A DNA stretch of 64,000 bases from Watersipora subatra (taxonomy: Eukaryota; Bryozoa; Gymnolaemata; Cheilostomatida; Watersiporidae). Shown here piece by piece: positions 4,981-59,473 of the stretch. Numbering within the stretch: position 1 is the first letter of the stretch; each line of letters opens with the position of its first letter. Under the pieces are notes generated by a model. It was not told where the DNA came from, did no database searches, and worked only from the letters and a program-made list of their open reading frames with translations. Both the position numbers and the translations under genes were made by a program. Location of the stretch: NCBI RefSeq assembly GCF_963576615.1, contig NC_088717.1:40316302-40380301 (forward strand), written 5' to 3'.

Positions 4981-5028
4981 CTGACCATTTGTATGTTTAG
5001 ATCTGATAGCAATATGTGTAATAGCCAA

Positions 5029-5710
5029 GCCATGCTGCACTCGATATGGGTTATGTTATATCCTAAGGAGCCAGGCCTTGCTGCACTCGATATGGGTTAT
5101 GTTATATCCTAAAGAGCTAGGCGATGCTGCTCTCGATATGGGTTATGTTATATCCTAAGGAGCCAGGCCATGCTGCACTCGATATGGCTTATGTTATATC
5201 CTAAGGAGCCAGGCCATGTTGCACTCGAAATGGGTTATGTTATATACTAAGGAGCCGGGCCATGCTGCACTCGAAATGGCTTATGTTATATCCTAAGGAG
5301 CCAGGCCATGCTGCACTCGATATGGGTTATGTTATATCCTAAGGAGCCGGGCCTTCTGCACTCGATATGGCTTATGTTATATCCTAAGGAGCCGGGCCTT
5401 CTGCACTCGATATGGCTTATGTTATATCCTAAGGAGCCGGGCCTTGCTGCACTCGATATGGCTTATGTTATATCCTAAGGAGCCAGGCCATGCTGCACTC
5501 GAAATGGCTTATGTTATATCCTAAGGAGCCGGGCCATGCTGCACTCGATATGGGTTATGTTATATCCTAAGGAGCAAGGCCATGCTGCACTCGATATGGG
5601 TTATGTTATATCCTAAGGAGCCAGGCCATGCTGCACTCGATATGGGTTATGTTATATCCTAAGGAGCCAGGCCATGCTGCACTCGATATGGGTTATGTTA
5701 TATCCTAAGG
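5029..5710. repeat. Minisatellite, 46-bp unit, about 15 copies
   Basis: Direct repeats of a 46-bp unit that reads GCCATGCTGCACTCGATATG, then GGTTATGTTATATCC, then TAAGGAGCCAG. Copies differ by single bases; two copies are 2 bp shorter (CTTCTGCACTC in place of CTTGCTGCACTC). It lies directly after the FBXW7 3' end. No open frame or known family. Confidence 0.95.
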
Positions 5711-5892
5711 AATGTCCAAACCAAAACGGCATAAGATTAAAAGCAAACATGTAGCAAACATTTTGAAGGGGTGACTAAATACTAATAGGCGATTGGTTGA
5801 CCTCCATACATACTGTAGAGTTTACTAAATACAAATAGATTATAGTCGTCCTTGAGAAATTTAGGAGGGGTTGCGGAAGGCACATTTATGTG

Positions 5893-8516
5893 CGTCATGA
5901 ACTTTCCACAAGGAATGGGATTAGAGATTATGCAACGCAAGTAGGTCATGAACTTCCCAAAGGAATGTGGTATGGGATTACAGAAGGCAAGCAGATCATA
6001 GACTTATCAAAGGAATATGGTACTGGGTTACAGAAGGCAAGCAGGTCATGAACTTTCCAAAGGAATGTGGTATGGGATTACAGAAGGCAAGCAGGTCATA
6101 GACTTATCAAAGGAATATGGTACAGGGTTACTGAAGGCAAGCAGGTCATGAACTTTCCAAAGGAATATGGTATGGGATTACAGAAGGCAAGCAGGTCATG
6201 AACTTTCCAAAGGAATATGGTATGGGATTACAGAAGGCAAGCAGGTCATGAATTTTCCAAAGGAATGTGGTATGGGATTACAGAAGGCAAGCATGTCATA
6301 GACTTATCAAAGGAATATGGTATTGGATTACAGAAGGCAAGCAGGTCATGAACTTTCCAAAGGAATGTGGTATGGGATTACAGAAGGCAAGCAGGTCATG
6401 AACTTTCCAAAGGAATATGGTATGGGATTACAGAAGGCAAGCAGGTCATGAACTTTTCAAAGGAATGTGGTATGGGATTACAGAAGGCAAGCATGTCATA
6501 GACTTATCAAAGGAATATGGTATTGGATTACAGAAGGCAAGCAGGTCATGAACTTTCCAAAGGAATATGGTATGGGATTACAGAAGGCAAGCAGGTCATG
6601 AACTTTTCAAAGGAATGTGGTATGGGATTACAGAAGGCAAGCATGTCATAGACTTATCAAAGGAATATGGTATTGGATTACAGAAGGCAAGCAGGTCATG
6701 AACTTTCCAAAGGAATATGGTATGGGATTACAGAAGGCAAGCAGGTCATGAACTTTCCAAAGGAATATGGTATTGGATTACAGAAGGCAAGCAGGTCATA
6801 GACTTATCAAAGGAATATGGTATGGGATTACAGAAGGCAAGCAGGTCATGAACTTTCCAAAGGAATATGGTATGGGATTACAGAACGCAAGCAGATCATA
6901 GACTTCCCAAAGGAATATGGTATGGGATTACAGAAGGCAAGCAGGTCATGAACGTTCCAAAGGAATATGGTACGGGATTACAGAAGGCAAGCAGATCATA
7001 GACTTCCCGAAGGAATATGGTATGGGATTACAGAAGGCAAGCAGGTCATGAACTTTCCAAAGGAATATGGTATTGGATTACAGAAGGCAAGCAGGTCATA
7101 GACTTATCAAAGGAATATGGTACGGGATTACAGAAGGCAAGCAGATCATAGACTTCCCAAAAGAATATGGTATGGGATTACAGAAGGCAAGCAGATCATA
7201 GACTTCCCAAAGGAATATGGTATGGGATTACAGAAGGCAAGCAGGTCATAGACTTTCCGAAGGATTATGGTATGGGATTACAGAAGGCAAGCAGATCATA
7301 GACTTATCAAATGAATATGGTACGGGATTACAGAAGGCAAGCAGGATATGAACTTCTCAAAGGAATATGGTATGGGATTACAGAAGGCAAGCAGATCATA
7401 GACTTATCAAATGAATATGGTACAGGATTACAGAAGGCAAGCAGGTCATGAACTTTCCAAAGGAATATGGTATGGAATTACAGAAGGCAAGCAGGTCATG
7501 AACTTTCCAAAGGATTATGGTATTGGATTACAGAAGGCAAGCAGGTCATAGACTTATCAAAGGAATATGGTATGGGATTACAGAAGGCAAGCAGGTCATG
7601 AACTTTCCAAAGGAATATGGTATGGGATTACAGAAGGCAAGCAGATCATAGACTTCCCAAAAGAATATGGTATGGGATTACAGAAGGCAAGCCAATCATA
7701 AACTTTCCAAAGGAATGTGGTACGGGATTACAGAAGGCAAGCAAGTCATGAACTTTCCAAATGAATATGGTATGGGATTACAGAAGGCAAGCAGGTCATA
7801 GACTTATCAAAGGAATATGGTACGGGATTACAGAAGGCAAGCAGGTCATGAACTTTCCAAAGGAATATGGTACGGGATTACAGAAGGCAAGCAAATCATA
7901 GACTTTCCAAAGAAATACGGTATAAGATTACAGAAGGCAAGTAGAGCATAGACTTATCAAAGGAATATGGTATGGGATTATGGAAGGCAAGCAGATCATA
8001 GACTTTCCCAAAGGAATATGGTATGGGATTACAGAAGGCAAGCAGGTCATAGACTTTCCACAGGAATATGGTATGGGATTACAGAAGGCAAGCAGGTCAT
8101 GAACTTCCCAAAGGAATGTGGTATGGGATTACAGAAGGTAAGCAGGTCATGAAATTTCCAAAGGGATATGGTATTGGATTACAGAAGGCAAGCAGGTCAT
8201 GAACTTCCCAAAGGAATGTGGTATGGGATTACAGAAGGTAAGCAGGTCATGAAATTTCCAAAGGGATATGGTATTGGATTACAGAAGGCAAGCAGGTCAT
8301 GAACTTCCCAAAGGAATGTGGTATGGGATTACAGAAGGCAAGCAGGTCATGAACTTTCCAAAGGAATATGGTATGGGATTACAGAAGGCAAGCAGGTCAT
8401 AGACTTATCAAAGGAATATGGTATGGGATCACAGAAGGCAAGTAAGTAATGAACTTCTCAAAGGAATGTGGTATGGGATTATGGAAGGCCTAGGTATAGG
8501 ACTGTCCAAAGGAATT
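5893..8516. repeat. Minisatellite, 50-bp unit, about 52 copies, two unit types
   Basis: A 2.6-kb array of a 50-bp unit: AGGAATATGGTATGGGATTA, CAGAAGGCAAGCAGGTCAT, then either GAACTTTCCAA or AGACTTATCAA. The two endings alternate irregularly and blocks of several units recur, for example a 150-bp group repeated between 6240 and 6700 and a 100-bp pair repeated at 8090-8290, which points to unequal exchange of multi-unit blocks. The first and last units are diverged, as expected at array edges. Short open frames inside are shadows of the repeat. Confidence 0.95.
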
Positions 8517-41036: not shown

Positions 41037-44000
41037 CTAAAACTTCCTCTGGTACTTGTTGGCTTCTTTGTTGGGCAAAAGATGGTTAAAAGCTGCTGTT
41101 AGTCGACTACTTTGGAACGCCGGAATATAATACCCAGGATTCCGTGCGGGAACAGCTGATGCCATTTCCGCCTCCTTCATGGCAGGTGCGACGTAAGGTT
41201 TATTCTCATACTTGTGTCTGGCAATTTCACGCAGCAGAGCTGATTCCTGATTTCCACGCTAAAAATATTGGAATGAGTTTTCAACCGCAATGCCAGAGGT
41301 TAGAGGTTACCAACAGCTAGTAAACTTCCCTTTCTTTCATGTAAACAGCGTGACATCAGTGGTAAGGGATTAGCATTGATATCAGTAGTAAGGGATATAT
41401 ATATACGAGACACCGTAAAATAATCGTCTATCAGGGTAATCGTATTCTGAGGGTGCACCGATATATATATATATATATCTATATATATATCACCCAACGA
41501 GTCCATCGATCTCGCGTTCCTCAATGGTTTAGCATATTGTCTGGGGAAAGGGAGGTTCTGATATCAAATTTTCCGCGATTTGGGTTCTTCATTCCAAGAT
41601 TTTAATAGCTATAACTGTACATACCGAAGGACAGGTACACAAACTCTAATTTATATATATCGTAAAACCTCTATTTGAATGCCATGGCGCTGTATTTTCC
41701 ACGCTTTTCCTATAAACCTTCTCCTATAATAGCGACGTTTTATTAGAGGTGATGTTCAAACAGAGGGGGCGCTGTGTTTTCCGAAGCTAAAGCTAATGCC
41801 GAAGCGATGCTAGTCGCCTATAATTTGCACTCTCCTTCGGATGGAACAACATTAAAGCCAAAAGCCTCAGCATTTTTGCTAAAATGTTTTTTATTAAAAG
41901 TATCAGAGCGAATTAAACAAGGAACTACTATGAGTAAAACATATTAGCTAGATACAGTTATTAATTATTTAGATGGTGTCGGTTTCAATGTTTTAAAGAA
42001 AAAAATGTGAAGCTTTGGAGTTAAAAAACAGACTTTGATGTGCCATAACAATGGCTGCTATTACGTCATACTGTGTTCATGAAGAGTATTTTCATCATTC
42101 ATCAGAACGCTTTAAAATCTTCAGGCAAGATTGTAAACTATACATTATAGATGAATATGAAGACAATTGATCAAATTTAAACCTTAGTGACTTCGATACG
42201 ATTTAGGTCTTTGTGACTTCGAATCAAGGTGTAGTCCTGATGATTGTGACTGTTGACCTTTTCAGGTACATCATCAATAAAGCCCTGGCAACCACCACAG
42301 CAACAACGGAGGAAATAATTGTTATTAAGTGAACCGAGTCATTATCAGTACCATTCTATTGATCACTTTTCTACTGATCACTTTTTATTACGGGTTTGTA
42401 AAGATCAAAGAACGTTAAAGTGTCGGTCAAATAGAGGTGGTATTCAATTAAAGGGTGATGCTGCATTTTTCAACTCTTCTCCTATAGTGACGTTCTATTA
42501 GAGGTGGTGTTCAAATAAAGGTGCCGCTCAAATAGAGGTGTTATGCCATCCTGTTTAGCGAGATAGCCTTGAAGTAGCATTAAAAATGCACAGTAACAGC
42601 ATAAAGCGAAGAATATGGAGGCAAGGCTACCTGCTTGACGAGGTTGTAAAATATTCCCTTTTCATTCTGTAGAAGGACATGGGGCGGGTCTAGCTCCTTG
42701 ATCTTGCCATTGTCCATGACCATAATGCGATCAGCGTCTATAACTGTCTTAAGTCGTCGAGCTATCGTTATGACTGTGCAATGCTCAAAATTTCTCTTGA
42801 CTATCTTCTGCAGGAGAGCCGCTGACCTGCGTGTATGATCATAGATTGAAGATTTAAACAACAATAATAATAACAACAATAATAGCAAGAATAAACTTTT
42901 CAGGATGATATGCTTATTTGAAGCAAACATAGAATGAAAATATAACAGTCATGAAAAAGATCTAGCCTCTAATGGATACTGTCAATCCCCAATGTGTCAA
43001 GTTAATCTGTCGCAATACCAGTCCTCTATTATCCAAGCCAAATTAAGAATAGCTCTATGTTGGCCTTTTGCAAAGGATTGCTGGGTTGCAGCAACTTAAT
43101 CTCACGCAAGACTTTCCCCTAAAAGGAAACCTTGGAAAAGGGCCAGCATCTGATAACTCTTCAATGAACCAGAGCGGAGACACTTAAGAGAAGAGGATAG
43201 AGCAGATGGAGTTTAACTCAGTCCTGAACTGCTAATTGTTACTATAAATAAAGTAATTAGTTCAACTCATAGGCAAGTACAAGGAGCCAGTCCTTTATAC
43301 ACAAACCAAATCAAGAATGGCTCTCTGTAGGCCTTTTGTGAGGGATTGTAGGGTTGTAGCGACTCGAAGTTAAAGGATTGTCATATTCATTCTTACAAAA
43401 ACATAAGACAAAATGCGCATTTCTTTCCTACAAAAACTAAGTTAGGTGCGACAAAAGAAATCCAGATAATTGCGCATTAAATATGGCTAATAATATTTTT
43501 TGAGCAAATACACAGCTCATCGTAAAGCTCTTCCTATTAGATATAACACAGCACAAGTGGCTGACATCGCATAGTGATTATTTTAGACACTCTCAGCATG
43601 CCTCTAATCATGTTAGCAAATAACTGCACTGGCCAAAGGAATCATTTATCAATGGCGAGTCATTACAGGGTCCAACAATTTGTTTACCCTGTAATGTAAT
43701 TTACCCTGCATATATTTGTTTCATATGTCAAACCATCGTAAATGGGGTCGAACATTCTTATAAGGTTACATTGTATTATATTTGATTCATTCTTGAGCCC
43801 AAAAGCGATGATAAAAAATTTTCATTACGATTTTATTAATAAACAAGTCCATATAACATCATAACAAAAAGTCTATCTAAAACCATGTAAAAAGCTAAAT
43901 ATTAAAACCTAAATTATATTTACAAAATTAAATTAATAAAACAACAAAGGTTTTATTGATACTTCACCTGAGAGACATGTAATTGGAATGTGATACTTAA

Positions 44001-44276
44001 ATTCTGTAGTAGAGTGAGTGATAGAACGACACAGCCTGACTTACTCTAACTTACACCACATATAAGTTGCATTTGTTTAATCTAAATATTATTTATTACA
44101 TTTTATTTTCACCACCTTTTCACTTAGAAAATCATAATGATTCAAACAAATATTTTGACATTGTTAAGACAAACTTTGTATGTCAAGACAAACTTGGTAT
44201 GTTGAGCCATATTGTTGGAAATTTTATAGCGATGTTGAAGAATTCCTTGATAGATGGTATTGTCAGTTGAGATGGT

Positions 44277-44335
<59 letters not shown>

Positions 44336-47300
44336 GAGGGTCAGTCAATAAGTAGTGGGAATTTGGTCATAACTTTTGTTCTATTTTATTTAGCAATTTA
44401 ATATTTTCTAGATTGTTATAAATGGGAGTTCTCATCACTTACCCAAAAATTCATCATTTTAGTGATTCAACTATTTAATATTATTTATATTCAAAATGGA
44501 AGCCAAGCTGAAAACATGTGCACTCATAGAGCAAAGAACTGTTATAAGATTTTTGAGAGCTGAAGGTGTAAAAACGAGAGGCATACACAAAAAAATGAAA
44601 CAACAATATGGGGAAAGCTGTATGTCACAAACAAGCTGCTATTGGTGGGTTGATTCATTCAAGAATGGGCGAGAAGACAATCTCTCCGGTAAAGAAGGAG
44701 TTCAAATCTCAGAGAACGACACGGAAAGTAATGCTCACAGTATTCTGGGATAGAAAGGATCCTAAAACTTGGGATTTCAAGAGCCAAGGTAACACTGTTA
44801 ACTCTAAAAACTACTGTGAGCTTTTGGCTGGGGTGAGGCAAGACATAAGGAGCAAGAGAAGAGGCCTCCAGAATAGAGATGTCGTGTTTCACCAGGACAA
44901 TACCCACCCACATACTGCTGCCCATACAATGGCCAAAATTGAGGAACTGGGCTGGGAGGTGTTAGTACAACCTCCTTATAGTCCAGATCTAGCACCAAGC
45001 AATTTTCATCTTTTTGGACCATTAAAGAACCACATGAGAGGCAAGCACTTCACTACTGATGCAGCTCGTCATGGAAGCTGTGCGCGAATGGTTTAGAACC
45101 CAGCGGCCAGAATTTTATTCTACAGGAATTGAGAAACTTCCAGAAAGGTGGAACAAGTGCATAGAAAACGAAGAGGATTATGTTGAGAAGTGAACAAAAA
45201 ATTGTAGCTATATCTTATTGTAATAAAATGTTATGACAAAATCCCCACTACTTATTGACTGACCCTCGTATATATATATATAAAACAGTTAGTCAGTTCC
45301 GTTCCAGTCTAAGTCTATATGTAAAGGTACACACCCTACCTCCTGCCGCTTATAATAATAGTAAAAACGTATTCTAAAGACCTTTGAATAATCTGGAGGC
45401 ACGGAAGACAAGAGAACAAACAGGTAAACAGACAAACAAAGCTAACGGAGACTGTGACTATTGAGCTCTCAGCTGTATAATCAACTGTTAGAACGTTATG
45501 AATAACGCGTAAGGCATAGCCATGCTTGTCGTGCGGCATAAGGCGTATTTGGGACATTGTGCGTTAAGACAAACTTTGCATGTCAAGGCATACCTCGGAT
45601 CAACATTGTCCATTGTCTCTTCAATTATTAAAATCTTAGGGTTTGGCTTGAGCAAGACCCGTGCGAGACAGAGCAACTGTTTCTGTCCTACACTGAGGTG
45701 TGGTTGTAGGTGAGACATGTCAGCATACAGCCTTCCTGGAAGGCTCTCTATCTTGTGCTTTAGGTTTACCTACCAACACAACAAGTTTACGTACTAACGT
45801 AACAGGTTTACCTACCAACACAGATCTATACTGGCCTGCAGCAACAATAAGAGCAACATAAAATATTTAGATCGTACAAGATAAGTAGGGAATGTGAGTT
45901 GTATCCTCATGATAAAAGACAGAAACCAATTGAGAAGAGAGCTGATGTGTTTAAACTTTGTGTTTAGAGATGAAGTAAGTTTTACTGTAGGCCTAACAAC
46001 ACTGGTTAAAATACATTTTTAGTATTTCCTATAAAGTACTATTGATAGCAAGTGTGCCAGACACAGGAATCCTAGACTGTTAACGGCAGAAAAATATCTT
46101 AAAGCTAGCAGACGGATTGACTCAGGTTTCTCACCTCTTCTAATATCCTCCAAAGGTCAGAATCTGATGCCTTTCCATTTATATCAAGATTTTGCCTCAG
46201 ATTCCCGCTGAACAGAGGAGAGTCTTCAGGAACCACTGCTATTTTTTCCCTCAATTCCTGACACACAACAACACAGACGAATAAAGGCAGAACAAAGGGA
46301 TATCCAGTTCTCTAAATGTTTCTTAGAAATTCACGTATACTAAAGAGTCTTGATGCAAACACGAAGACACAAAGATTTTACTCTACTAAAAATAGATTTA
46401 TCGCAGACGGTAAGAATGGATTAATACTATAATTAATACTACATGGTATGTGATTATGACTAATAAACATCTTAACGATAATAATAATACCCAACTGAGG
46501 AATTTGATGCAAATTACGTAGTTACGGAGTCCGTCAGCTGACGGCACCTACCTTGAGACTAAGTGATCCAGTGTCAACTCCATCTATTCTTATGACTCCC
46601 TTAGATTCGTATAGTCTGAGTATTGCAGCGACCATCGAATGTTTACCTGCACCAGCCTTTCCAACAACACCAACCTTACAAAGAATAACGATCACGCTTC
46701 ATCAGCAGAGATGCGGAGATACCAGCTGATTCAATGGTATTCCACACAGTTTTTAATTATATAAATATATACTTTATGTAAATATTAAATATCTCATAAA
46801 ATATGGTTTTATTTATAAACACTAAAAAGAAAACTAAAAGTTTTACTCAATAAGACAGCCATGCCATCACTATCGTCATTCACACAAAATGTGATCAGTT
46901 CCATAGATAGATGCCTTGAATGAAGGCATATTTGGTGAGTAAGTTGGTGTTAATAATTATATATAAATTTAAACATGTCATTCTCCTAAAAGCGGTTACA
47001 GAACAAGTGAATAACTACACTTTACTTTCTAAAAAGCTTTAGACAATCAAAAACACATTGTGGTAATTTTAGGAATGTTTGCATTTAATATTATTTTGGC
47101 TTTCTGTGGCTCTGAGAACTTTTGGTTTGGATAAAATAAGAATTTTATTAGTTTGATTAATTCACAGATCATAGACATCAGCAATGCTGAGAGACTATTG
47201 AAGTATTAAGTACTACTACTGTAGGCTGTTAACATTGATTTAAACTTGAAGTCATGCGTTATTAAGGATCTCTAGTTCTATTGTCACAAAAAGTACGGTA

Positions 47301-50300
47301 GACTCCTACAAGGTGAATAATCCGTTTCAAAAATGTTTATGTTATAGGGATATTACGTTATATGTACAGTAAAATGCCTGTAAATAGCCTTATCTGTTTC
47401 AAGATAATCCCAAACTAACCCCTTTGGCATTTGAGATAGGAACAAATTAAAGCAACTTTTTAATTTAATTACTGTACAGTAACTGTAGTATTATTGGCTT
47501 GTATCGACAACTTTTCTCATTTTTATTATCACTTTCACCTGGTGTAGAGTTCAAGATTACAGTAATTTCACAACAAAATATGGGGAGTGCACACTTTCAA
47601 AGTCGATTTAAATATATTTTTCCACTTTTTCCTAGACAAAAGGTCTATGGTAGAATTAAAAAAATAAAAAGTATTATATAGGTCTTAAGTAAAGCAAAAC
47701 AAAAGTATATTTACTATCGTATCGTGTCTGTTTATGCGCTTTTTCGATGTCAAGGTTAGAGGTCGGAGCTAGGTTAGGTTGGGGCTAAGGTATAAAAGAT
47801 TGATTTCAATGAGACTTCAATTCACGGCATTCATATTAGTAGACCGACACTGTAACACCTGCACCAATGGACTGCCTTTAAGGATTTCTGAATAATTGTG
47901 CAGCTACATATTCTCTTTGCTTTATTGGCCCGCCTGATGATCTCTGACAGCACGATAAACTGGGAGGGTACTGGTATATACATCAGAGATACCCCTATAC
48001 GTCATTTTACATAGTATCTCTCCACAGTGCGGCAAGTGAAAAGCTGATATTTTTAAGGCTAGCTATGGAACTCTCGTTATTAAACTTGCATTAATTTGAC
48101 GCTTTACGTTATATGTAATTTCTTACACAATACCAAGCAAGAGCTTTACAAAAATTCTTTACATGAAATGGATATTATGTTGTAGGAGCATCTACTGTGC
48201 ACACAAATTCAGTGAAAGGCTTGCAACTGTCAATCCCGAATGATGTCAAGGACATATGAAGGCATACCTTCTCATATGCCCTAAAGCAGCAATAAATATT
48301 CCTGAGTGCCCTGACTCCGGTGTCAGGGTAAGTAAGTGAAACACTCTCGAATGTTATGATGCCGTAGGTGGGCCAGGTACTAGGCATATCTACTGATGCT
48401 CCTGTCGTGCCTGGGTATGTCTCAGATTTTAGTTGACTATACTTTAGAACCTGAAACAAAAGCTCACATTGTCTGGGACTACAACTAGAATTTTAATGCG
48501 GTTTACATTAGATGTCAGAGACTTTAGACTAAGAACTTCAACATTGTCCAAGTATGTGGACTCAATAATATTATATACACATACCCGATCTACTGCTCCC
48601 ATCTGGTGGTCTACTTCTATAGAGTTTCTGACGGTAGTTTGGAATGTCCAGACAAGGTTGACAATGTAAACAAGAGACAGGCATAAACACACGGTCTCAA
48701 TTTCTCCTCTCACTGAATAACAGAAACAAAGATACACGTAAGTGAGCTACACGCATATTAAGATGTACAAAATATATATACAGCAGGATGTCTGCTTATG
48801 AAAGATCCTGGATGTAAAATTTCCAAGCTCTGAAACGTGTTTTAGTAGAAATAACGCTGCGACTTGCGAAAGATGTTTCGAGACACAAAAGGCTGACAGG
48901 CCTTTCATATTTTGGACCTTCTGTAATGTTTCGCTTGTTTCGTATTTTGGCCTGTTTGATTCCCGTGAGAACGTACAATGCATACAATGTGTAGAAATAA
49001 CATGATATGACTTCAAAAAATATGAAGTATAAAAGTGCATCTATCTTTTTCAATCTCTTTCAGCAACTGACAGTTGCTAGTGAAAGTCAGTAAATGATAA
49101 GTGTCTATCTTCATTAAGGATTTAGTGTTTATTTCTAACTTTTTATAACTTTTATTCACCATATTCCCACTCCCAGTATATTCACCATATTCCCACTCCC
49201 AGTATATTCACCATATTCCCACTCCCAGTATATTCACCATATTCCCACTCCCAGTATATTCACCATATTCCCACTCCCAGTACATTCACCATATTCCCAC
49301 TCCCAGTATATTCACCATATTCCCACTCCCAGTGTATTCACCATATTCCCACTCCCAGTATATTCACCATATTTCCACTCCCAGTATATTCACCATATTC
49401 CCACTCCCAGTATATTCACCATATTCCCACTCCCAGTATATTCACCATATTCCCACTCCCAGTATATTCACCATATTCCCACTCCCAGTATATTCACCAT
49501 ATTCCCACTCCCAGTATATTCACCATATTCCCACTCCCAGTATATTCACCGTATTCCCACTCCCAGTATATTCACCATATTCCCACTCCCAGTATATTCA
49601 CCATATTCCCACTCCCAGTATATTCACCATATTCCCACTCCCAGTATATTCACCATATTCCCACTCCCAGTATATTCACCATATTCCCACTCCCAGTATA
49701 TTCACCATATTCCCACTCCCAGTATATTCACCATATTCCCACTCCCAGTACATTCACCATATTCCCACTCCCAGTATATTCACCATATTCCCACTCCCAG
49801 TGTATTCACCATATTCCCACTCCCAGTATATTCACCATATTCCCACTCCCAGTATATTCACCATATTCCCACTCCCAGTATATTCACCATATTCCCACTC
49901 CCAGTATATTCACCATATTCCCACTCCCAGTATATTCACCATATTCCCACTCCCAGTATATTCACCATATTCCCACTCCCAGTATATTCACCATATTCCC
50001 ACTCCCAGTATATTCACCATATTCCCACTCCCAGTATATTCACCATATTCCCACTCCCAGTATATTCACCATATTCCCACTCCCAGTATATTCACCATAT
50101 TCCCACTCCCAGTATATTCACCATATTCCCACTCCCAGTATATTCACCATATTCCCACTCCCAGTATATTCACCATATTCCCACTCCCAGTATATTCACC
50201 ATATTCCCACTCCCAGTATATTCACCATATTCCCACTCCCAGTATATTCACCATATTCCCACTCCCAGTACATTCACCATATTCCCACTCCCAGTATATT

Positions 50301-53300
50301 CACCATATTCCCACTCCCAGTGTATTCACCATATTCCCACTCCCAGTATATTCACCATATTCCCACTCCCAGTGTATTCACCATATTCCCACTCCCAGTA
50401 TATTCACCATATTCCCACTCCCAGTATATTCACCATATTCCCACTCCCAGTATATTCACCATATTCCCACTCCCAGTATATTCACCATATTCCCACTCCC
50501 AGTATATTCACCATATTCCCACTCCCAGTATATTCACCATATTCCCACTCCCAGTATATTCACCATATTTCCACTCCCAGTGGTCTTTGATTACCTAGTC
50601 TAGATGGTCAATACCAAAAGTAAACAAACATACCGAGTGTAGATTTACTCATTATTTCTCTGTTCTTTCTTCTTTCCATGTATACTTTTTCTATATTTAT
50701 TATGTAGTAATATAATTCTAATATGTATCTGTTACAGGTTTTAATCATTATTTATAATTTATATAAAAACGATGTCTAAGTTTGGTGGAGGTCTAGATCT
50801 GATTAGGACATTTATAAGGTAACATGCATTTCTACTAGAAAAATTTTCTACTTGCAAAACGCTTCCGAAACAAATTAATTTTGTAAGTAGAGTTTAAAAT
50901 ACAGATATTTCCTTTATGTATGCAATCGAATGACACAGTAGTAAACTGAATTTTTCACACCAAAATACTAAAAATGACCTAAGGGTACAAAAACAAAAAG
51001 AGCTTTGCTAAGCACGATGAAGAAAAGCTAAGGGAATTGGCCAGATAGACCTAATGAATGTGCAATATTAATAATATACAAGACTTATTGTGCTATGCTC
51101 ATACTTTGATGTGTTGTACAGCTTTGCCTCAACCACATTGTACAATAAGAACTATAAATTCTTACTTGATAGACCGAATTTTATAAAATAATTTACTTCA
51201 TTTAATATACCAAAACTTTACAGGGAGGATTTAGTGAAAAAAAAATTTTTTTCATATTTTAATTTGAAGCAAACCATACCAAAACCAAGTCAGTTTAAGT
51301 GCCTTCTGTTAGCGACCACATGAAACATGCTTCTGTTAGCGACTACATGAAACATGGACCTGCAATCACATCATTTATCGATGTAAAATTATATAGAACC
51401 ATACTTTTGAATATTTTAACATTTTCCTTTTTGCAGTGAAAAGACCAGCTTGTCATCTTGCGGAGCGTACAACTCGACTAAAGGCAAATGAGCTAGTACG
51501 ATTCATACTCAATGGTTGAGGGCATGCACTTCTCACATGGTTCATACTCAGAGAGCTAAAGGATAATAATTAACTCACTAGTGACTGGGTGCTGAGAGAC
51601 GACAACGGAGATGAGAGCAAGGGAAGTAACGAAAACCATGCAGATAATATCGAGCACGATAGCGAACCAACGATTGGATGCGATGTATGTATAGCACGCA
51701 GCCGTATGTTTATCCTGCAGGATATCGAAGCAATGCAGGAATCTGTCCTCTGAGCCGAGAGCCCGAATTGTCCAGAGGCCTTCCAAAGTTGTGGATAGGT
51801 GGTTGAAAACCGGAAACCGGGCTGAAAAACAGCAATTTTAAGGAGTCATAGTGATCTAATAAGCAATAGATGTATTCATAGAGATATGTACAAGGCCAAA
51901 ATAGAAAACTTACATTCATGCCAAAAGTTGTGTTATCTTCATATGATAGTTAATGCACTTGTCTTACTAGTTTAAACAAATCAATATTACATTATTACTA
52001 TTATTATGCATATTACAGAATTGTCTCATTCAGAAGTAAACGAACAGTAGGCTAAGTGATCCCTTTTCAATAGGCTTACAAAGGTGTCACACAGACAAAA
52101 CTATGTCAAATTGTTAAATAGTCAATGAAAGCTGTTGTATGCTGCCATTGGTCTTCATCAATTAACCTTAGGTGTCACAAGATGACACAAGGTTACACAA
52201 GACACAACTATTTAAAGTAATTCCAAAACAGAGACATGTAGTTGTCTGCCCTTTGTGTGCCCTAACAGTTAGAAATACTCACATCTACTCTCTATGAGCT
52301 TGATATCCCTGGCAGAGTGACAGTAGTAATATCTGATTAGAATAAAGAATGCGATTAAAGGTATGAGTAGGATGCCCATCCAGAAGTTGCCTGCACATGC
52401 GATAACCAGAGCTCCGACTATTGTACCAAAAGTCTGCAAACACATCAATGTACTTCAGAATTTTTATATAACTCCAAATACATTCAGCCAGCTCCAAATA
52501 ACAACAGTGCTAAACTACCAAAAGCTGGTCCTAGCCAAGATTCACATAGATTTGTCTTGTCTTGAATTGATTTTTTTATCAAGCATTAGTAAGAGAAACC
52601 ACAACTTTGAAAATCATGCAGGATCAACAAAAAGTCACTCTGGTTATACTATTGCGTTTGTTAGAATATAAATATTCTATTTTTTCAAATTTGCAATAAA
52701 GTGCAAAACCGATTTTATGTCTGACTAGTGCATTCACTGGTCTGAGATAAAATCAAACTTAAACAGAAATGATAAAACGTCAGCTGAAAGACAACCTGAG
52801 TTAATTTAGAACCTTGCTGACAGTACAAAGAGAAGCTAAATTTACTCAGAAAAACAACTCAATAGATTTGAATGCTTACAGAAATCTTTTAGGAGTGGCA
52901 CCATTGAAGACTACATGATTTATCAGGTGAAACCCTACTAATGCCTTAAGTTGTAGTCATAATAATCCTATCGATTAGAAAGATAGAGGGGGTGAGATAG
53001 AGGGGAGAGGAAAAGGGGAGATTAAAAAGGGGAGAGAGGGGGAGAGAGAGTCATCAGCATGCCAGCACTAATACTTTATAAGTTAGAGCTTACCATGAGC
53101 ATATCAAATGTGGTGGCTGGCAGGAGGTCATCAGATTGCACAACGTCCTGAGAGAAGCGTTTTAAAATCTCGCTAACAGGGTCCTTCTGAAGATCTGAGA
53201 GAGGAGCCCGGACTATAACCTGGTGTAATACAAAATATGGCTACAGTGTACTTTACAGCTCTACCTTGATTAGATGATGTGTGACTCAGCAACAATAAAC

Positions 53301-56300
53301 CAGCAATGGTAAGATGGATGTACAATATGAAAAAAAGAGTAAGAGATATAACAAACCTTGAATAGGTCAGAGTGAAGGATTTTGCTGGCTGCTAGCATTG
53401 AGTGGAAGAACGTGATTCCCGTTAAAAGAGAGAATAAAATACAACAGAGACTGATGCCTATATAAAGGAAGTAATATGTGGTTGAGGAACTGGCTGCATC
53501 CACCCATAAATTGGACCTGCAAAAGTAATAAAGAATATCATAGTCAAAACAACAAAATAGGATGCTGAATATTTATAAGGACCATCCACATTGTGGTGCA
53601 GTGTATAATACCATGGTGTAATGCAGAGTGTCATGATGTAATGCATAGTGTTATGGTGTGATGTATAATACCATGGTGTAATGCATAGTGCCATGATATA
53701 ATGCATAGTGTTATGGTATAATGTATAATACCATGGTGTAATGCATAGTGCCATGATGTAATGCATAGTGTTATGGTGTAATGCATAATACCATGGTGTA
53801 ATGCATAGTGCCATGATGTAATGCATAGTGTTATGGTGTAATGCATAGTGTCGTGATGTAATGGATATTGTTATGGTATAATGTATAATGCCATGGTGTA
53901 ATGCATAGTGTTATGGTATAAAGCATATTTTCATTGCATAATGCATAGTGCCATTGTGTAATGTATAGTGCCATTGTGTAATGCATAATACCATGGTATG
54001 GAGAGAAAGATTTACAGTGTTCCATTCATCAAAGCCAATACTCTAATCGTTTGCCCAAATCCAGCCAGCAAAACCCCAAGTACAACAATGTAAAAGCCCA
54101 TACAACATTTTTCCTATGTGTGGATAGATGACAAAACACAATAGAACCATGACTGGTTGATTATACATACTATAAGTATGACTAATGTTGAAAAACTATG
54201 GTATATTATAGTGAGCAACTCTGTCAGAGAACTGAAATATGCTTGGTTATTTCATTAATCTACTATTCTCTTGCTGGAACTCTCCCCCCGTGTTAGCGTT
54301 AACACAAAGGCAGTGCCGATATATCTAAGAGAAATCAGTTATCAACTAAAGTGACGCTCGATGCTATAAGGTGGACAACTGTTAACTACTGAGCAAATCA
54401 TCTTCCCTTCTATAAAAGCCAAGGGGAACCATCCACCCTTCGACTCCAGCATGGCGGTGGATACTAAGCCGGTATTAGTGAAATAACAATAACATAAACT
54501 TTAAGCCGATTTGTGACACTGTTCAAGGACTAGTTAATAATATGATCGATGAGAAACAACTAGTTCAGTGTCGTCGAGTGGACAAATACTAAAATCGATA
54601 AAAGCAAAAATGGAAGAGAGTTACTGTTTTAGGCTACAGTATAGCATAGAGGTCTAAGCACTCAATAAGCACTCGATAAGCTAAAAGATGCTAAGCTGGA
54701 GAGTGATGCGAGTGACAGCTGAATTAAGTGAAGCATATTTATTAAATGTTCTTAAATAGTCTCATTTGTTTGACTAACATTAGTTTATCACATTCACAGT
54801 AACTCTGAATTTGACATCTGTGTTTCAATTCAATCGAAATTACCTCACAGAGCGAATTCAAGACAAAATGCTTCCAAATATTTGGCTTTCAACGTGCTAT
54901 GATGAACCCATTTGTCACGCAAAACTTCTGTCCCATAAAAACGCATGGCCTTCAATGCGTTCTGATAAATAAATTAAAACAGTCCATGGGAGCTCACCAG
55001 TAGATTATAAGCCAATCACTGAAGACATATGTGCCAAGAGTGATGAACCAGAGAATGACTATAGCGAATACCATTCCTCCTCCTCCAGCCATTGCTATGT
55101 AATCTCCATACACACTCCATGGTGTCCCTGGATTTGATTGCCTAGAGCCCGATTTGTCCGATATCAGCAAGCTGTGTAAGGACTTGGTCTACAAAAGTGC
55201 CATGAAATGGTCTTCCTAATGCTGTCAGCAGGTCAATAAACAGGATTAATCTGCTCTACCAATCTCATTAAGCAAGCATAAATATAAGTGGGAACAACTC
55301 CTTAGAATAGTGAAATATCTGCGCATCTTGTTTTTTGTCACGACCAATACAAAAGCAAAACAAATTTAATTCCTTGCCTCAGTGCCATCAAGGTTGATGC
55401 TGACAAGGCTGGCATTCAGACTTTCCATGGAAAGCTGCTGACTTCCACAGACTCTCCTTTTTGTTTTGCTGAGGCCAGCAGTGGAGGCGAGGCTAGCTTC
55501 TATAGTTGGAGCGCGCTCCACCTCATACTCGGCGAGCATCGCGGAGAAGTCCACTCCTGAGGCTATAAGCTCTTCATATGTTCCCTGAGAGCTAATGTTA
55601 CCCTGCGAAAATAAGAAAAAAATTCTGCAGTTTTGGAAGTTGTCCACTCTCTAATGTTCAGCAGACTAAAACACGCTTCAAATAGGCCTCATAGATGAAA
55701 ATGTATGATATATCTGATCTCTATCCTGTGGCAGTTCACCAAGGTCCAGGTCAATAAGAGAACAGCTATATAGTAGTTTGTTACAGATAATTTGATTTGA
55801 AGGAATAGAGACAATGAATAAAGATCTTCAAGGTTTGATCTTATAGAACAAAAGTAGATAAATTCTACAACCAAGAAATTCAATGAGCAATGATACAAAA
55901 ATTTATGATCAGAAAGTAAAATATTTTAAGATGAAAAATATTGGTCATTGAGGAAAGAGCAAAGACATAAAAAAATGCTCGTGACTTGATATCAAATGCT
56001 ATTAAGTGCTGGGGTTTTTGTGCTTTATAATATATTGTTACGCACTTTTAAAAATATATTTTGTTTTTGTGATGGGACACTGGTTTAGCCACTCCAGAGC
56101 TATTCATTGGCTGACTGTCCTATAAATTTAATGAACAAAAAATTGAATTCAGCACCTCATCACCCATCAGCCAGAAGTACTTCCTGTCAACATCAACTCT
56201 AAATGTCTGCTGGCACCTTACTACCACGAACAAATTACTATTATTTTATTAAGCTGTACCACTTACAGTTTCTTGCTATTTCAAAAAAAAGTTAGCATCA

Positions 56301-59300
56301 ATCTAAAAATTTGTTTCAACGGTCACAAATCTTTAGATCGATTCAAATCAACATAACCTGGTCTACAAATCAACATTGCCTCTCTCTGCTACAAACTGAG
56401 GAGTTATGTCTCCGTGAACCAGGTACTATAACAATGCGTCATCTAGAGGCAATGGTAACGATGCTACAACAAGAAAAAACAATCAAGGTACTAAGTCATA
56501 TATGATGATATCTTTGTTATATTTTTACGATCAATAGTAGCTTCTTACAACAAAACTGTTTAATAGCGTTTGCTTTAGCTTAAAACAAATCATAATATCA
56601 GAGTCAGGAAGGATTAGAGAGTTTATTTTTGAAGAAAGATGGCCTCTAACCTAAAATGATATATAAGTGATCATATTATGGAGTTAAAAGTGCCTGCACC
56701 TCTCATCTCAAACTGTCCTCAAATTCCACCTACCTCAAGCCCTTGGGTGAGATTCAAGTATGCGAACCAATTATATTGCACCTACCTCTTGCATGACAAG
56801 AACTTTGTCAGCAACCTTGACATATGGCAGCTGCTGGGTTACCAAGACGACCGTTGAATCTTTCAGCAGACCACACACACACTTGTTAAAGATCGTCCTA
56901 CCCACGTAGGAATCCACACAGCCTGTAGGGTGCAGTCAACAAAAAGCACGATGAATATTGCTTCTCTGATTTTTATAAATAAATTTTTACAACATCAAAA
57001 AGAAAAAAAGTTATAGGAAAGAAGATTGAGATCTTTGAAAATAATGGCTGTGACTTTTTGTAAACGGATACTGGGTATTGAACGTGCTGACAGTCAGCCG
57101 TATACTTACTATGTACTTTTGATAGACTTACCAAAGGGATCATCAAGAAGATATACATCAGCGTGTCTATATATTGTTCTGGCCAGACTTATCTTCACTT
57201 TCTGCCCAAAGAAAAGCTCAAAGCCGTGTTCTCCAACAATAGTCATGTCACTTTGGGGCAATGATTCGATATCCTACAACATAAACCTAATAGAAAACGT
57301 GGTGACGCAACTGTCTTCATCAGTTAAACATTTGAGGCACGCGTTTAAACTCTGAGGTCTCTCCTAAAGAACGCGAGCTGAAGTTGGTTTACCATTCCAC
57401 TGAAGATCACAGAAATGAGAAAATAGCGTAACATAATATATTTTAAATAAAGATTAAGTATCTAAGTCCATTTTCTTGGTCAATCTTCGTCAGCTACTGA
57501 CAGTTTTATACATTTACATTCACACTTCAGTGTCCAACGGCAATGTGCCAGGCTAATGGCAAACAACTACATGACCTGTCACTGTATACAAGCTGATTTT
57601 TAATACCAGTGCAATGCCGGACATTCCGCTAGTACATATATATATATATATATATAAATAAATATATAGAATAATTTAAAATAATTTAAAAGAAGATAAA
57701 AATTTTGACTATTATATTTACACTACTAATAGTTTCGTGTTAAAAACACTCATCAGGTGACATTCATTTATGCGCAGAAGCTTATATATACGTAGGAACA
57801 TACAAGCTAGGCAGTGATCTTATAATGAGGCATGCAAGCACTGTAAATTCCCAAATTGATGGCAGTAGTAAAAGTGCAAAGGCTAAGCAATAAAATTGTA
57901 AACAATAAATGGGATGAAAAAAGCTAATCTATTAACTGTTTATTAGCAAAAATTTACTTGAGTGTCTACACCCAGATACCATTTCAGATTTCTTATTCAG
58001 TGTCGCCATATGTGGCTTGTACATAATGTAGAATTTTTCCCACAGACATAGTTCGCACTTCTTGGCACGATTATTGTAAGCTGCTGATCTGTGGATAATA
58101 TTCCATCGGACTAACTAGACCTACATCGGATTAACCGAAAATACGTTTAAGAAGAGGTACGCCAACCACAAGTCTTCCTTCATCAATACCAGCAAAAGAT
58201 CAGCAACCAGGCTAAGCGAACATGTATGGTCCCTCAAAGAGAAAAACATCATGCATACCATCAAATGGAATATTATCCACAGATCAGCAGCTTACAATAA
58301 TCGTGCCAAGAAGTGCGAACTATGTCTGTGGGAAAAATTCTACATTATGTACAAGCCACATATGGCGACACTGAATAAGAAATCTGAAATGGTATCTGGG
58401 TGTAGACACTCAAGTAAATTTTTGCTAATAAACAGTTAATAGATTAGCTTTTTTCATCCCATTTATTGTTTACAATTTTATTGCTTAGCCTTTGCACTTT
58501 TACTACTGCCATCAATTTGGGAATTTACAGTGCTTGCATGCCTCATTATAAGATCACTGCCTAGCTTGTATGTTCCTACGTATATATAAGCTTCTGCGCA
58601 TAAATGAATGTCACCTGATGAGTGTTTTTAACACGAAACTATTAGTAGTGTAAATATAATAGTCAAAATTTTTATCTTCTTTTAAATTATTTTAAATTAT
58701 TCTATATGCACTGCCTTTATGGCATTGAGCACTTTTTAGTCAAAAGATTTCCACTAGATATATTAGTAAATAAATATATATATATTCTGTGAGCATCAGT
58801 ACAAGTTCTCTATAAACACAGTTTAACAATAGCTATCTTAGCACACTAACTATTTAATGCATATTCTGGATGGCTCCATAGACTCCACACCTGGGTAACA
58901 TCTATTTTATGCACTCAAGAAAAAAACTTGAAAAGAGATTAAAACTTCTATGCAATATTATTGGTAGATATTAATACTGCATCTCTGCATAAGTATTCCT
59001 ACTGTAGGCCAAGAGTAAGACAAAAGCCAAAGAAACCAGTTTTTGATCCCTTAGACAGATGGATAGCTCAAACATAAAAAGCACAAAAAACCCTTCAAAA
59101 TAGGACAACAGTGAAACTAACGAATCAGTAATGATGAGAAACTGTACACAAAATAAAAACTAAATAGTGACAGCATTATGACAATGATGAACTCATGGCT
59201 GGATTGGAGAAGGAGAGTGCTGACCAGACTACAAGACACAAGTGCTACAAGACACTGGGAAAGATAATAGCTATAGATCACCTTGTTGAGGTCACAGGCT

Positions 59301-59473
59301 TTGACCACCTTATTGTAACGTCCCCTATCATAGTCTTGACCAAAGAGAATATTGTCTCTAACACTGGCAGTGAATACCCAGGGAGCCTGTGAGGCGTAGC
59401 TCATCTTCCCTTGCAGCCTGAGGAAGCCTCGTAGCCTCGGTATCTCTCCTAGCATTGCCATCAACAGAGGAGT
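41037..59473 (-). CDS. ABCC4/MRP4-like ABC transporter, 3' part, with altered ATPase motifs
   Basis: Sixteen minus-strand exons: 59473-59282, 57273-57132, 56922-56786, 55602-55378, 55188-54998, 53516-53357, 53219-53094, 52433-52283, 51821-51579, 48712-48585, 48450-48268, 46674-46552, 46257-46135, 45769-45594, 42826-42631, 41258-41037 (stop TAG). Phases agree at every junction; one intron (donor at 55377) is GC-AG. Order: NBD1 from just after Walker A (LLMAMLGEI, SYASQAPWVF, NILFG), linker, TMD2 (SDWLIIYW, LKRFSQDVVQSDDLLPATTF, LEGLWTIRALGSEDRF), NBD2, and an ABCC4-like tail. Human ABCC4 is the nearest family I know: an exporter of cyclic nucleotides, prostanoids and drugs at the plasma membrane. 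Odd: NBD1 signature LFFGQ, D-loop GCVD, switch TQQ; NBD2 Walker A GAGKHS, Q-loop VVPED, Walker B ILIIEE, switch IARRL; NBD2 signature LSVGQ is normal. TMD1 and NBD1 Walker A must lie beyond 64000. Confidence 0.93.
41664..42543. mobile_element. Non-autonomous DNA transposon, AAACCTCTAATTGAA family, copy 2
   Basis: Begins GTAAAACCTCTATTTGAATG, then CCATGGCGC, and ends GCTCAAATAGAGGTGTTATG. Several internal TAGAGGTGGTGTTCAAAT-like blocks recur at 41738, 42425, 42500 and 42525. It shares GCGAAGCGATG and GAAGCTTTGGAGTT with the copy at 16273. It lies in the last intron of the ABCC4-like gene. No transposase frame. Confidence 0.6.
43012..43365. repeat. Diverged direct repeat, about 85 bp, two copies
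   Basis: 43020-43100 and 43285-43362 share CCAGTCCT, CCAA-TCAAGAATGGCTCT, GGCCTTTTG and GGATTG-GGGTTG blocks. Probably an old local duplication or two copies of a dispersed repeat, in an ABCC4-like intron. Confidence 0.6.
44276..44334. repeat. (TA)n microsatellite flanking the mariner insertion
   Basis: About 29 TA dinucleotides run up to the mariner left end; a shorter TA run follows the right end at 45269. Mariner elements insert at TA, so the element sits inside a TA tract. Confidence 0.95.
44335..45268 (+). mobile_element. mariner (Tc1/mariner) element, internally deleted, 934 bp
   Basis: Terminal inverted repeats of about 26 bp (CGAGGGTCAGTCAATAAGTA at the left, its complement at the right) differ at one base and are flanked by TA. 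The length is short of the usual 1.3 kb. It lies in the ABCC4-like intron between exons 45594 and 42826, in the opposite orientation to the gene. Confidence 0.93.
44496..45193 (+). pseudogene. mariner transposase remnant
   Basis: The N-terminal helix-turn-helix part (EQRTVIRFLRAEGVKTRGIH, then YWWVDSFKNGRED) is followed, after a deletion and frame change near 44690, by the catalytic core (MLTVFWDRKDPKTW, NTVNSKNYCELL, VFHQDNTHPHTA, PPYSPDLAPSNFHLFGPLK). A second frame change near 45065 leads into the usual tail (EFYSTGIEKLPERW, ending DYVEK). The catalytic aspartates (D of FWD, HQD and SPD) are visible, but roughly 100 residues of linker are missing. Not able to make a working enzyme. Confidence 0.9.
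45763..45822. repeat. Duplicated splice-acceptor segment before ABCC exon 45769-45594
   Basis: GGTTTACCTACCAACACA occurs at 45763 and again at about 45805, with a diverged third copy between. On the minus strand each full copy is a splice acceptor TTGGTAG followed by GTAAACC. The distal one would add 42 nt in frame, including a TAG stop. Confidence 0.7.
47740..48010 (-). mobile_element. tRNA-derived SINE in ABCC4-like intron
   Basis: Reverse-orientation relative of 32560-32880. Shared blocks on the minus strand: GGGGTATCTCTGATGTATA, GCACAATTATTCAGAAATCC, CATTGGTGCAGGTGTTACAG, TTGAAGTCTCATTGAAATC. The region 46750-47740 next to it is AT-rich with nothing recognised. Confidence 0.6.
49157..50581. 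repeat. Minisatellite, 26-bp unit, about 55 copies
   Basis: Almost perfect copies of TTCACCATATTCCCACTCCC followed by AGTATA. Rare variants (AGTGTA, AGTACA, CACCGTA, ATTTCC) recur with a spacing that suggests block duplication: an AGTACA-AGTATA-AGTGTA trio appears at about 49280, 49750 and 50270. The 423-codon open frame across it exists because no frame of the unit has a stop. In an ABCC4-like intron. Confidence 0.97.
52980..53050 (+). repeat. Polypurine GA/GGGG tract beside ABCC exon 53219-53094
   Basis: Nearly pure purine (GAGGGGGTGAGATAGAGGGG, then GGAGAGGAAAAGGGG) over 70 bases, ending about 45 bases from the exon's donor. On the transcribed-RNA sense strand it is a C/T-rich tract just inside the intron. 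Confidence 0.7.
53600..54000. repeat. 20-bp tandem repeat with 60-bp higher-order unit
   Basis: Monomers like ATGCATAGTGTTATGGTGTA. Groups of three (endings TTATGGTGTA, CCATGGTGTA, CCATGATGTA) recur every 60 bp between 53640 and 53820. Open frames with Met-His-Tyr repeats are shadows. In an ABCC4-like intron. Confidence 0.9.
57590..57632 (+). mobile_element. Helitron 3' end remnant
   Basis: AATGCCGGACATTCCGCTAG followed by T matches the 3' end of the Helitron at 35585. AATGCCGGACATT forms a small hairpin directly before CTAG. No 5' end is seen; the Penelope-like palindrome starts 31 bases further on. Confidence 0.45.
57664..58707. mobile_element. Penelope-like retroelement, inverted 3' ends (443-bp arms, 158-bp centre)
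   Basis: 57664-58106 is the reverse complement of 58265-58707. Both arms are 443 bp, and in the parts I compared base by base they are identical. The centre 58107-58264 plus the right arm encode the C-terminus of a Penelope-like GIY-YIG protein. The arms carry that gene's 3' end and about 270 bp of 3' UTR. Inverted or tandem terminal copies are known in Penelope-like elements; the equal arm length and identity suggest a recent event. Located in the ABCC4-like intron between 59282 and 57273. Confidence 0.8.
58119..58439 (+). pseudogene. Penelope-like element, GIY-YIG endonuclease C-terminal fragment
   Basis: The open frame reads TYIGLTENTFKKRYANHKSS, then RLSEHVWSLKEKN, IKWNIIHRSAAYNN, CELCLWEKFYIMYK and LNKKSEMVSGCRH before the stop. 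These blocks are typical of the end of Penelope-like ORFs. A TAG lies immediately upstream in frame, and the reverse transcriptase part is missing, so it is a 5'-truncated copy. Confidence 0.85.

Follow-up and report, generated by a model that had tools for sequence, protein, structure and literature searches.

We describe a gene for an ABCC4-type membrane protein on the minus strand of a 64,000-nucleotide stretch of the Watersipora subatra genome (the window; C10:40316302-40380301), in which one of the two adenosine triphosphate (ATP) sites is altered in all five of its motifs within an open reading frame. Judged from its sequence, the gene is full-length but for its start exon, and the usual ABCC pattern is turned around, with nucleotide-binding site 2 (NBS2) altered and NBS1 mostly kept. 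NBS2 is very probably not a normal ATPase. We give a probability of about 0.5 to the reading that the product is a fast-evolving, apparently functional ABCC4-type protein that would bind ATP at NBS1 without a normal hydrolytic cycle. That a non-pumping function is what selection maintains would seem an even bet.

The residues of the ATP sites were mapped on human MRP4 numbering and the motif codons were re-extracted from the minus strand. The consensus NBS2 expected of an ABCC4/MRP4 exporter is absent by sequence, with 6 of the 14 motif residues replaced over five motifs. Four of the replacements are in nucleotide-binding domain 2 (NBD2): S1082H in Walker A (GKAGAGKHS; CAT, 46639..46641), Q1122E in the Q-loop (VVPED; GAA, 46225..46227), D1201E in Walker B (ILIIEE; GAAGAG, 45617..45622) and H1233R at the switch position (IARRL; CGA, 42757..42759). 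The other two, S536F and G537F, are in the NBD1 signature, which is part of NBS2 and reads LFFGQ (57202..57216, DNA CTTTTCTTTGGGCAG) where human MRP4 has LSGGQ. NBS2 keeps the Walker A K1081 and the catalytic E1202. At NBS1, K451, Q480, D559 and D560 are kept, S452T was counted as equivalent, and the NBD2 signature, which belongs to this site, is LSVGQ (F1177L relative to MRP4). The NBD1 D-loop Asp is also kept in the alignment and was left out of the residue tally. The NBS1 switch His is replaced by Gln (H592Q; CAG, 56834..56836). The original prediction, made from the letters of the window, had reported six motif codon readings, and all of them proved correct. Its claims that the composite canonical site is substituted, and that the NBD2 signature LSVGQ and the NBD1 Q-loop are preserved, agree with this mapping, in which NBS1 is largely kept. 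Its Asp-to-Glu reading of Walker B ILIIEE was right as well, but the catalytic Glu of NBD2 is retained, which leaves this Asp-to-Glu replacement as the one change in Walker B.

For comparison within the same genome (a 783.7 Mb assembly of 239 contigs), we fetched 43 other loci, picked out by their similarity to either the candidate or MRP4, dropping hits with less than 40% identity; several of these loci overlap one place or are near-identical copies. Where the NBD2 positions were covered, S1082 was present in 17/17 loci, Q1122 in 29/29, D1201 and E1202 in 38/38 and H1233 in 39/39, and the NBD2 substitutions of the candidate were seen in none of the 43. A same-genome gene at C7:54.89-54.91 Mb shares ABCC4-like NBD1 and NBD2 stretches with the candidate, the ABCC4 label being given by eye from about two NBD1 and three NBD2 exons. 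Unlike the candidate, it is canonical (LSGGQ, NBD1 His, GRTGSGKSS, IIPQ, IDEATANVD and TIAHR). Another ABC gene among these loci (L069, 6386-6613; C10:27.48 Mb) has the NBD2 signature SVGE instead of SVGQ, and its NBD2 Q-loop Gln, Walker B Asp-Glu and switch His are all canonical.

The gene model was built by hand on the minus strand from the window plus fetched flanking DNA, and it comprises 24 exons, 16 in the window and 8 past its right edge. When spliced, it gives 1,297 codons with no internal stop and with a terminal stop present, and its 23 introns (22 GT-AG and one GC-AG) all have usable splice sites in phase. Splicing of 15 exons, from 57273 to 42177, gives a single open frame. The range reported by the original prediction, 42631..57273, contains real exons but leaves out a 16th window exon (59473-59282) and the last coding exon (42284-42177). 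The 15 introns linking the 16 window exons include 14 of the GT-AG type and one with a GC donor (after 55378), and a reading of all junctions as canonical was rejected. For exon 23 (45769-45594) the acceptor was set 12 nt upstream, and the exon thereby gains VNLK, aligned to human MRP4 VQLK. The 5' half of the gene, which lies outside the window, was recovered from the flanking DNA (C10:40380905-40391052); except for exon 1 it is present and open, and it supplies the NBD1 Walker A (GPPGSGK, followed by T in exon 10), transmembrane domain 1 (TMD1) and the N-terminal region, so that the intact frame claimed for the window part extends over this half too. A search of 26 kb upstream for the start-codon exon (ATG, phase-2 donor, NP/SP filter) gave no convincing candidate; the missing piece is about 25 residues as judged against MRP4.

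How long such a frame could have survived without selection was estimated by random substitution of the candidate DNA, with 60 runs per level. At 34.5% of residues changed, the mean was 21.5 stops and 0/60 runs were stop-free, and at 0.02 substitutions per site the mean was 2.7 stops and 5/60 runs were stop-free. With about 20 stops expected under neutral change and none observed, the frame was under protection during the period in which the bulk of the changes accumulated. Long neutral decay does not fit the absence of stops and was rejected. The original conclusion that this is not a decaying gene thus holds against long neutral decay (0 versus 21.5 stops), but a very recent loss of function may still be compatible with the stop count, which is not a test of the ratio of nonsynonymous to synonymous substitution rates (dN/dS).

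Several comparisons bear on the family assignment. The spliced protein has Pfam ABC_membrane and ABC_tran in both halves, in the order TMD1-NBD1-TMD2-NBD2, and ABCC4 is the best match across nearly the full length. In a phmmer search of PDB chains it is collinear with ABCC4/MRP4 residues 26-1275, the best MRP4 chain scoring 933 bits (E 2.6e-279) and human MRP4 924 bits (1.5e-276), and the best chains of CFTR (671 bits), YCF1 (616) and MRP1 (599) scored lower. Identity to MRP4 is 87/280 in TMD1 (over a stretch pieced together from two MRP4 chains), 102/229 in NBD1, 116/304 in TMD2 and 112/244 in NBD2. Among NCBIfam models the highest was CFTR with 702 bits, far under its cut-off of 1761; MRP came next with 673 bits against a cut-off of 1470. 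CFTR identity was rejected on this score and on the short linker between NBD1 and TMD2. A 10-row tree of NBD2 split the candidate and human MRP4 from the other 8 rows at 85/83, below the mark of 95/80, and put the candidate on a very long branch. Genome searches with MRP4 pieces ranked the locus best for TMD2, fourth for TMD1 and eighth for NBD1 among the scored matches. No second close copy was found in the assembly among the 56 of 569 candidates that were scored, the best match elsewhere being at most 53% identical in single NBD exons.

The original prediction had further claimed that change is concentrated in one composite site, and this did not survive. The candidate is changed at 19 of the 61 NBD2 columns that are invariant in a panel made up of human MRP4 and ABC genes of the same genome, with hits below 40% identity dropped. 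The ATP-motif columns (6/13 changed: R1076K, T1077A, S1082H, Q1122E, D1201E and H1233R) do not differ significantly from the other NBD2 columns (13/48; Fisher p = 0.31). Eight leave-one-out controls from the panel had 0 to 7 changed NBD2 columns each; in the top control (L069, 7), G1078T is an artefact of stitching at a splice seam, leaving 6. NBD1 is changed at 24 of 67 columns common to three canonical proteins. Substitutions at site 2 and site 1 number 6/14 and 1/14 (p = 0.077), on hand-chosen residue sets in which S452T and F1177L were scored as equivalent. The coupling motifs of both transmembrane domains are changed, GQIVNLLSND to ENIIKLMAQD in TMD1 and RNPIGRILNRFSKD to KDPVSEILKRFSQD in TMD2, and in the substrate pocket 5 of 14 residues from lists in parts of PMC11948813 and PMC10202912 are kept (F156, L367, R946, Q994 and R998), with W995 replaced by Thr. 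The substitutions are spread over the protein, and a strict concentration at the ATP site was rejected. The spread of change over NBD2 and NBD1 weighs against a selected role for the altered site, as does the NBD2 branch of the candidate, whose length of 2.33 against a median of 0.35 also fits general relaxation. Other points on the same side are that the NBS1 A-loop Trp is aligned to Gly (W419G, uncertain at a 4-residue gap), which could weaken ATP binding there, and that the surviving Walker A Lys and catalytic Glu of NBS2 make residual activity possible; parts of PMC7756269 also report that Q-loop Gln-to-Asn mutants of ABCC1 are not dead.

The candidate linker after NBD1, of about 80 residues, is far shorter than the R domain of CFTR. 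The protein is collinear with ABCC4/MRP4 chains over 26-1275 but is substituted in the NBS2 motifs including the NBD1 signature, in the coupling loops and at W995. In human MRP4 the ATPase site follows the consensus, and its catalytic E1202 is in NBD2, as described in part of PMC10202912. CFTR (ABCC7) and SUR (ABCC8/9) are ABCC relatives turned channel or channel regulator, and passages of PMC7756269 describe the degenerate site of full-length human ABC proteins as always NBS1. CFTR and SUR are degenerate at NBS1, whereas the candidate is degenerate at NBS2, and ABCC1-like exporters share with it one ATP site kept for binding and one altered, although the two sites have exchanged these roles. 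In ABCC1, according to the same passages, ATP stays on NBS1, which may act as a hinge while NBS2 hydrolyses; the NBS1 switch His tolerates change, and mutants of the NBS2 switch His nearly abolish transport, except for Gln or Asn. The switch Arg and Q-loop Glu of the candidate differ from the ABCC1 variants tolerated (switch Gln or Asn; Q-loop Asn). A limited search of open-access titles and abstract openings gave, among the entries listed, no described ABC protein in which NBS2, or NBS1 and NBS2 together, had degenerated, and nothing useful on ABCC4 in lophotrochozoans.

With all NBS2 motifs altered and NBS1 largely kept, ATP binding without pumping may follow. NBS1, made of the NBD1 Walker A and the NBD2 LSVGQ, would bind ATP and could hold the two halves together, and NBS2 would lack normal Mg-ATP binding or hydrolysis, in which case the protein could not cycle. 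Since the pocket residues R946, Q994 and R998 are kept, ligand binding is still possible. The resulting protein could be a nucleotide-dependent switch, a gate, a scaffold or a membrane binding protein, of which a binding-only switch, scaffold or gate seems likeliest. The selected pseudo-ATPase of the original prediction stays an inference. If selected, the gene would be a natural experiment on what this fold can do by ATP binding alone, and on why it is usually NBS1 that is given up; if merely relaxed, it would show cleanly how an ABC pump can lose its engine while its frame is still whole.

The retained residues also allow for a still slow transporter, in which the Walker A Lys, the catalytic Glu and LSVGQ would permit ATP binding or slow hydrolysis and binding alone would give the power stroke, and we hold this to be possible if on the unlikely side. 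The survival of E1202 and K1081, the mostly kept NBS1 and the five kept pocket residues speak for such a transporter, and translocation by TmrAB is driven by ATP binding, with hydrolysis resetting the machine, according to part of PMC7205462. The reset, however, requires hydrolysis, and the candidate has simultaneous replacements of the Walker A Ser, the Q-loop Gln, the Walker B Asp and the switch His, as well as at two positions of the opposed signature. Both coupling-loop motifs are altered, and W995, now Thr, is the residue whose mutation is reported to have most impaired cyclic AMP (cAMP) transport in human ABCC4. An unlikely explanation is that the gene was recently orphaned, its altered function having been lost not long ago so that it drifts before its first frame-breaking mutation. 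The excess of changed NBD2 columns over the eight controls, the very long NBD2 branch, the GC donor and the altered coupling loops would all fit this. It has to be set against 1,297 codons without an internal stop and 23 in-phase introns with usable sites; moreover, stops accrue already at 0.02 substitutions per site, so that a purely neutral phase can account for little of the divergence.

In a normal site, the Walker A Ser, Q-loop Gln and Walker B Asp hold Mg2+. Their replacements, His, Glu and Glu, would be capable as a group of binding Ca2+ or a transition metal. Combined with the Lys and Glu that are retained and with the switch His turned to Arg, this raises the quite improbable reading that NBS2 was converted to a metal- or nucleotide-sensing regulatory site, with NBS1 holding ATP, in a sensor or gate of reversed polarity. 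An artefact of the gene model or assembly, through misjoined paralogues or sequencing errors, is hardly credible. The model was built by hand and lacks its start exon, but all motif codons were read straight from the DNA, the 24 exons follow one another in order on the same strand of a single 61 Mb contig, their splice sites are in phase, and the search of the assembly described above gave no near-identical donor copy.

All window exons are on the minus strand, with coordinates from the spliced model. Exon 10 (59282..59473) encodes the part of NBD1 that follows the Walker A Lys (TPLLMAMLGE), with the NBD1 Q-loop SQAPW, exon 11 (57132..57273) the signature LFFGQ and Walker B LLDDPF, and exon 12 (56786..56922) the D-loop and the switch region TQQ. 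Exon 13 (55378..55602), which has the GC splice donor, holds the end of NBD1 and the linker, and exon 14 (54998..55188) the linker and the start of TMD2. TMD2 continues in exon 15 (53357..53516), exon 16 (53094..53219; cytoplasmic loop CL3 with the coupling motif), exon 17 (52283..52433) and exon 18 (51579..51821), the last of which ranks first among the TMD2 matches to human MRP4 that were scored in the genome. The last TMD2 helix is in exon 19 (48585..48712), where Q994, R998 and the Thr at W995 map. NBD2 starts in exon 20 (48268..48450), with the A-loop Tyr kept, and its Walker A is in exon 21 (46552..46674), its Q-loop in exon 22 (46135..46257), its signature and Walker B in exon 23 (45594..45769, corrected acceptor) and its switch region in exon 24 (42631..42826). 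Exon 25 (42177..42284) encodes the C terminus and the stop. The C-terminal residues are EVTKV (42180-42194), and the T-x-V end resembles a class I PDZ ligand; human ABCC4 ends in a similar PDZ-ligand-like motif.

Several repeats were seen in the introns. Between exons 10 and 11 there is a perfect 443-nt inverted repeat (57664-58106 and 58265-58707) with arms 100% complementary and 158 nt apart, which is probably a fold-back element of recent origin. A 26-bp minisatellite (49153-50581; 55 copies, 98% match) is in the intron between exons 18 and 19, and the one between exons 23 and 24 has a remnant of a Mariner/Tc1-like transposase on the plus strand (44602-45096; Pfam Transposase_1, E 1e-13). 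Further large arrays are at 5023-5711 and 5894-8489 of the window. Elsewhere in the genome, at C7:1.63-2.12 Mb (G000), closely similar ABCC-like exons are repeated on both strands, apparently by a recent segmental expansion.

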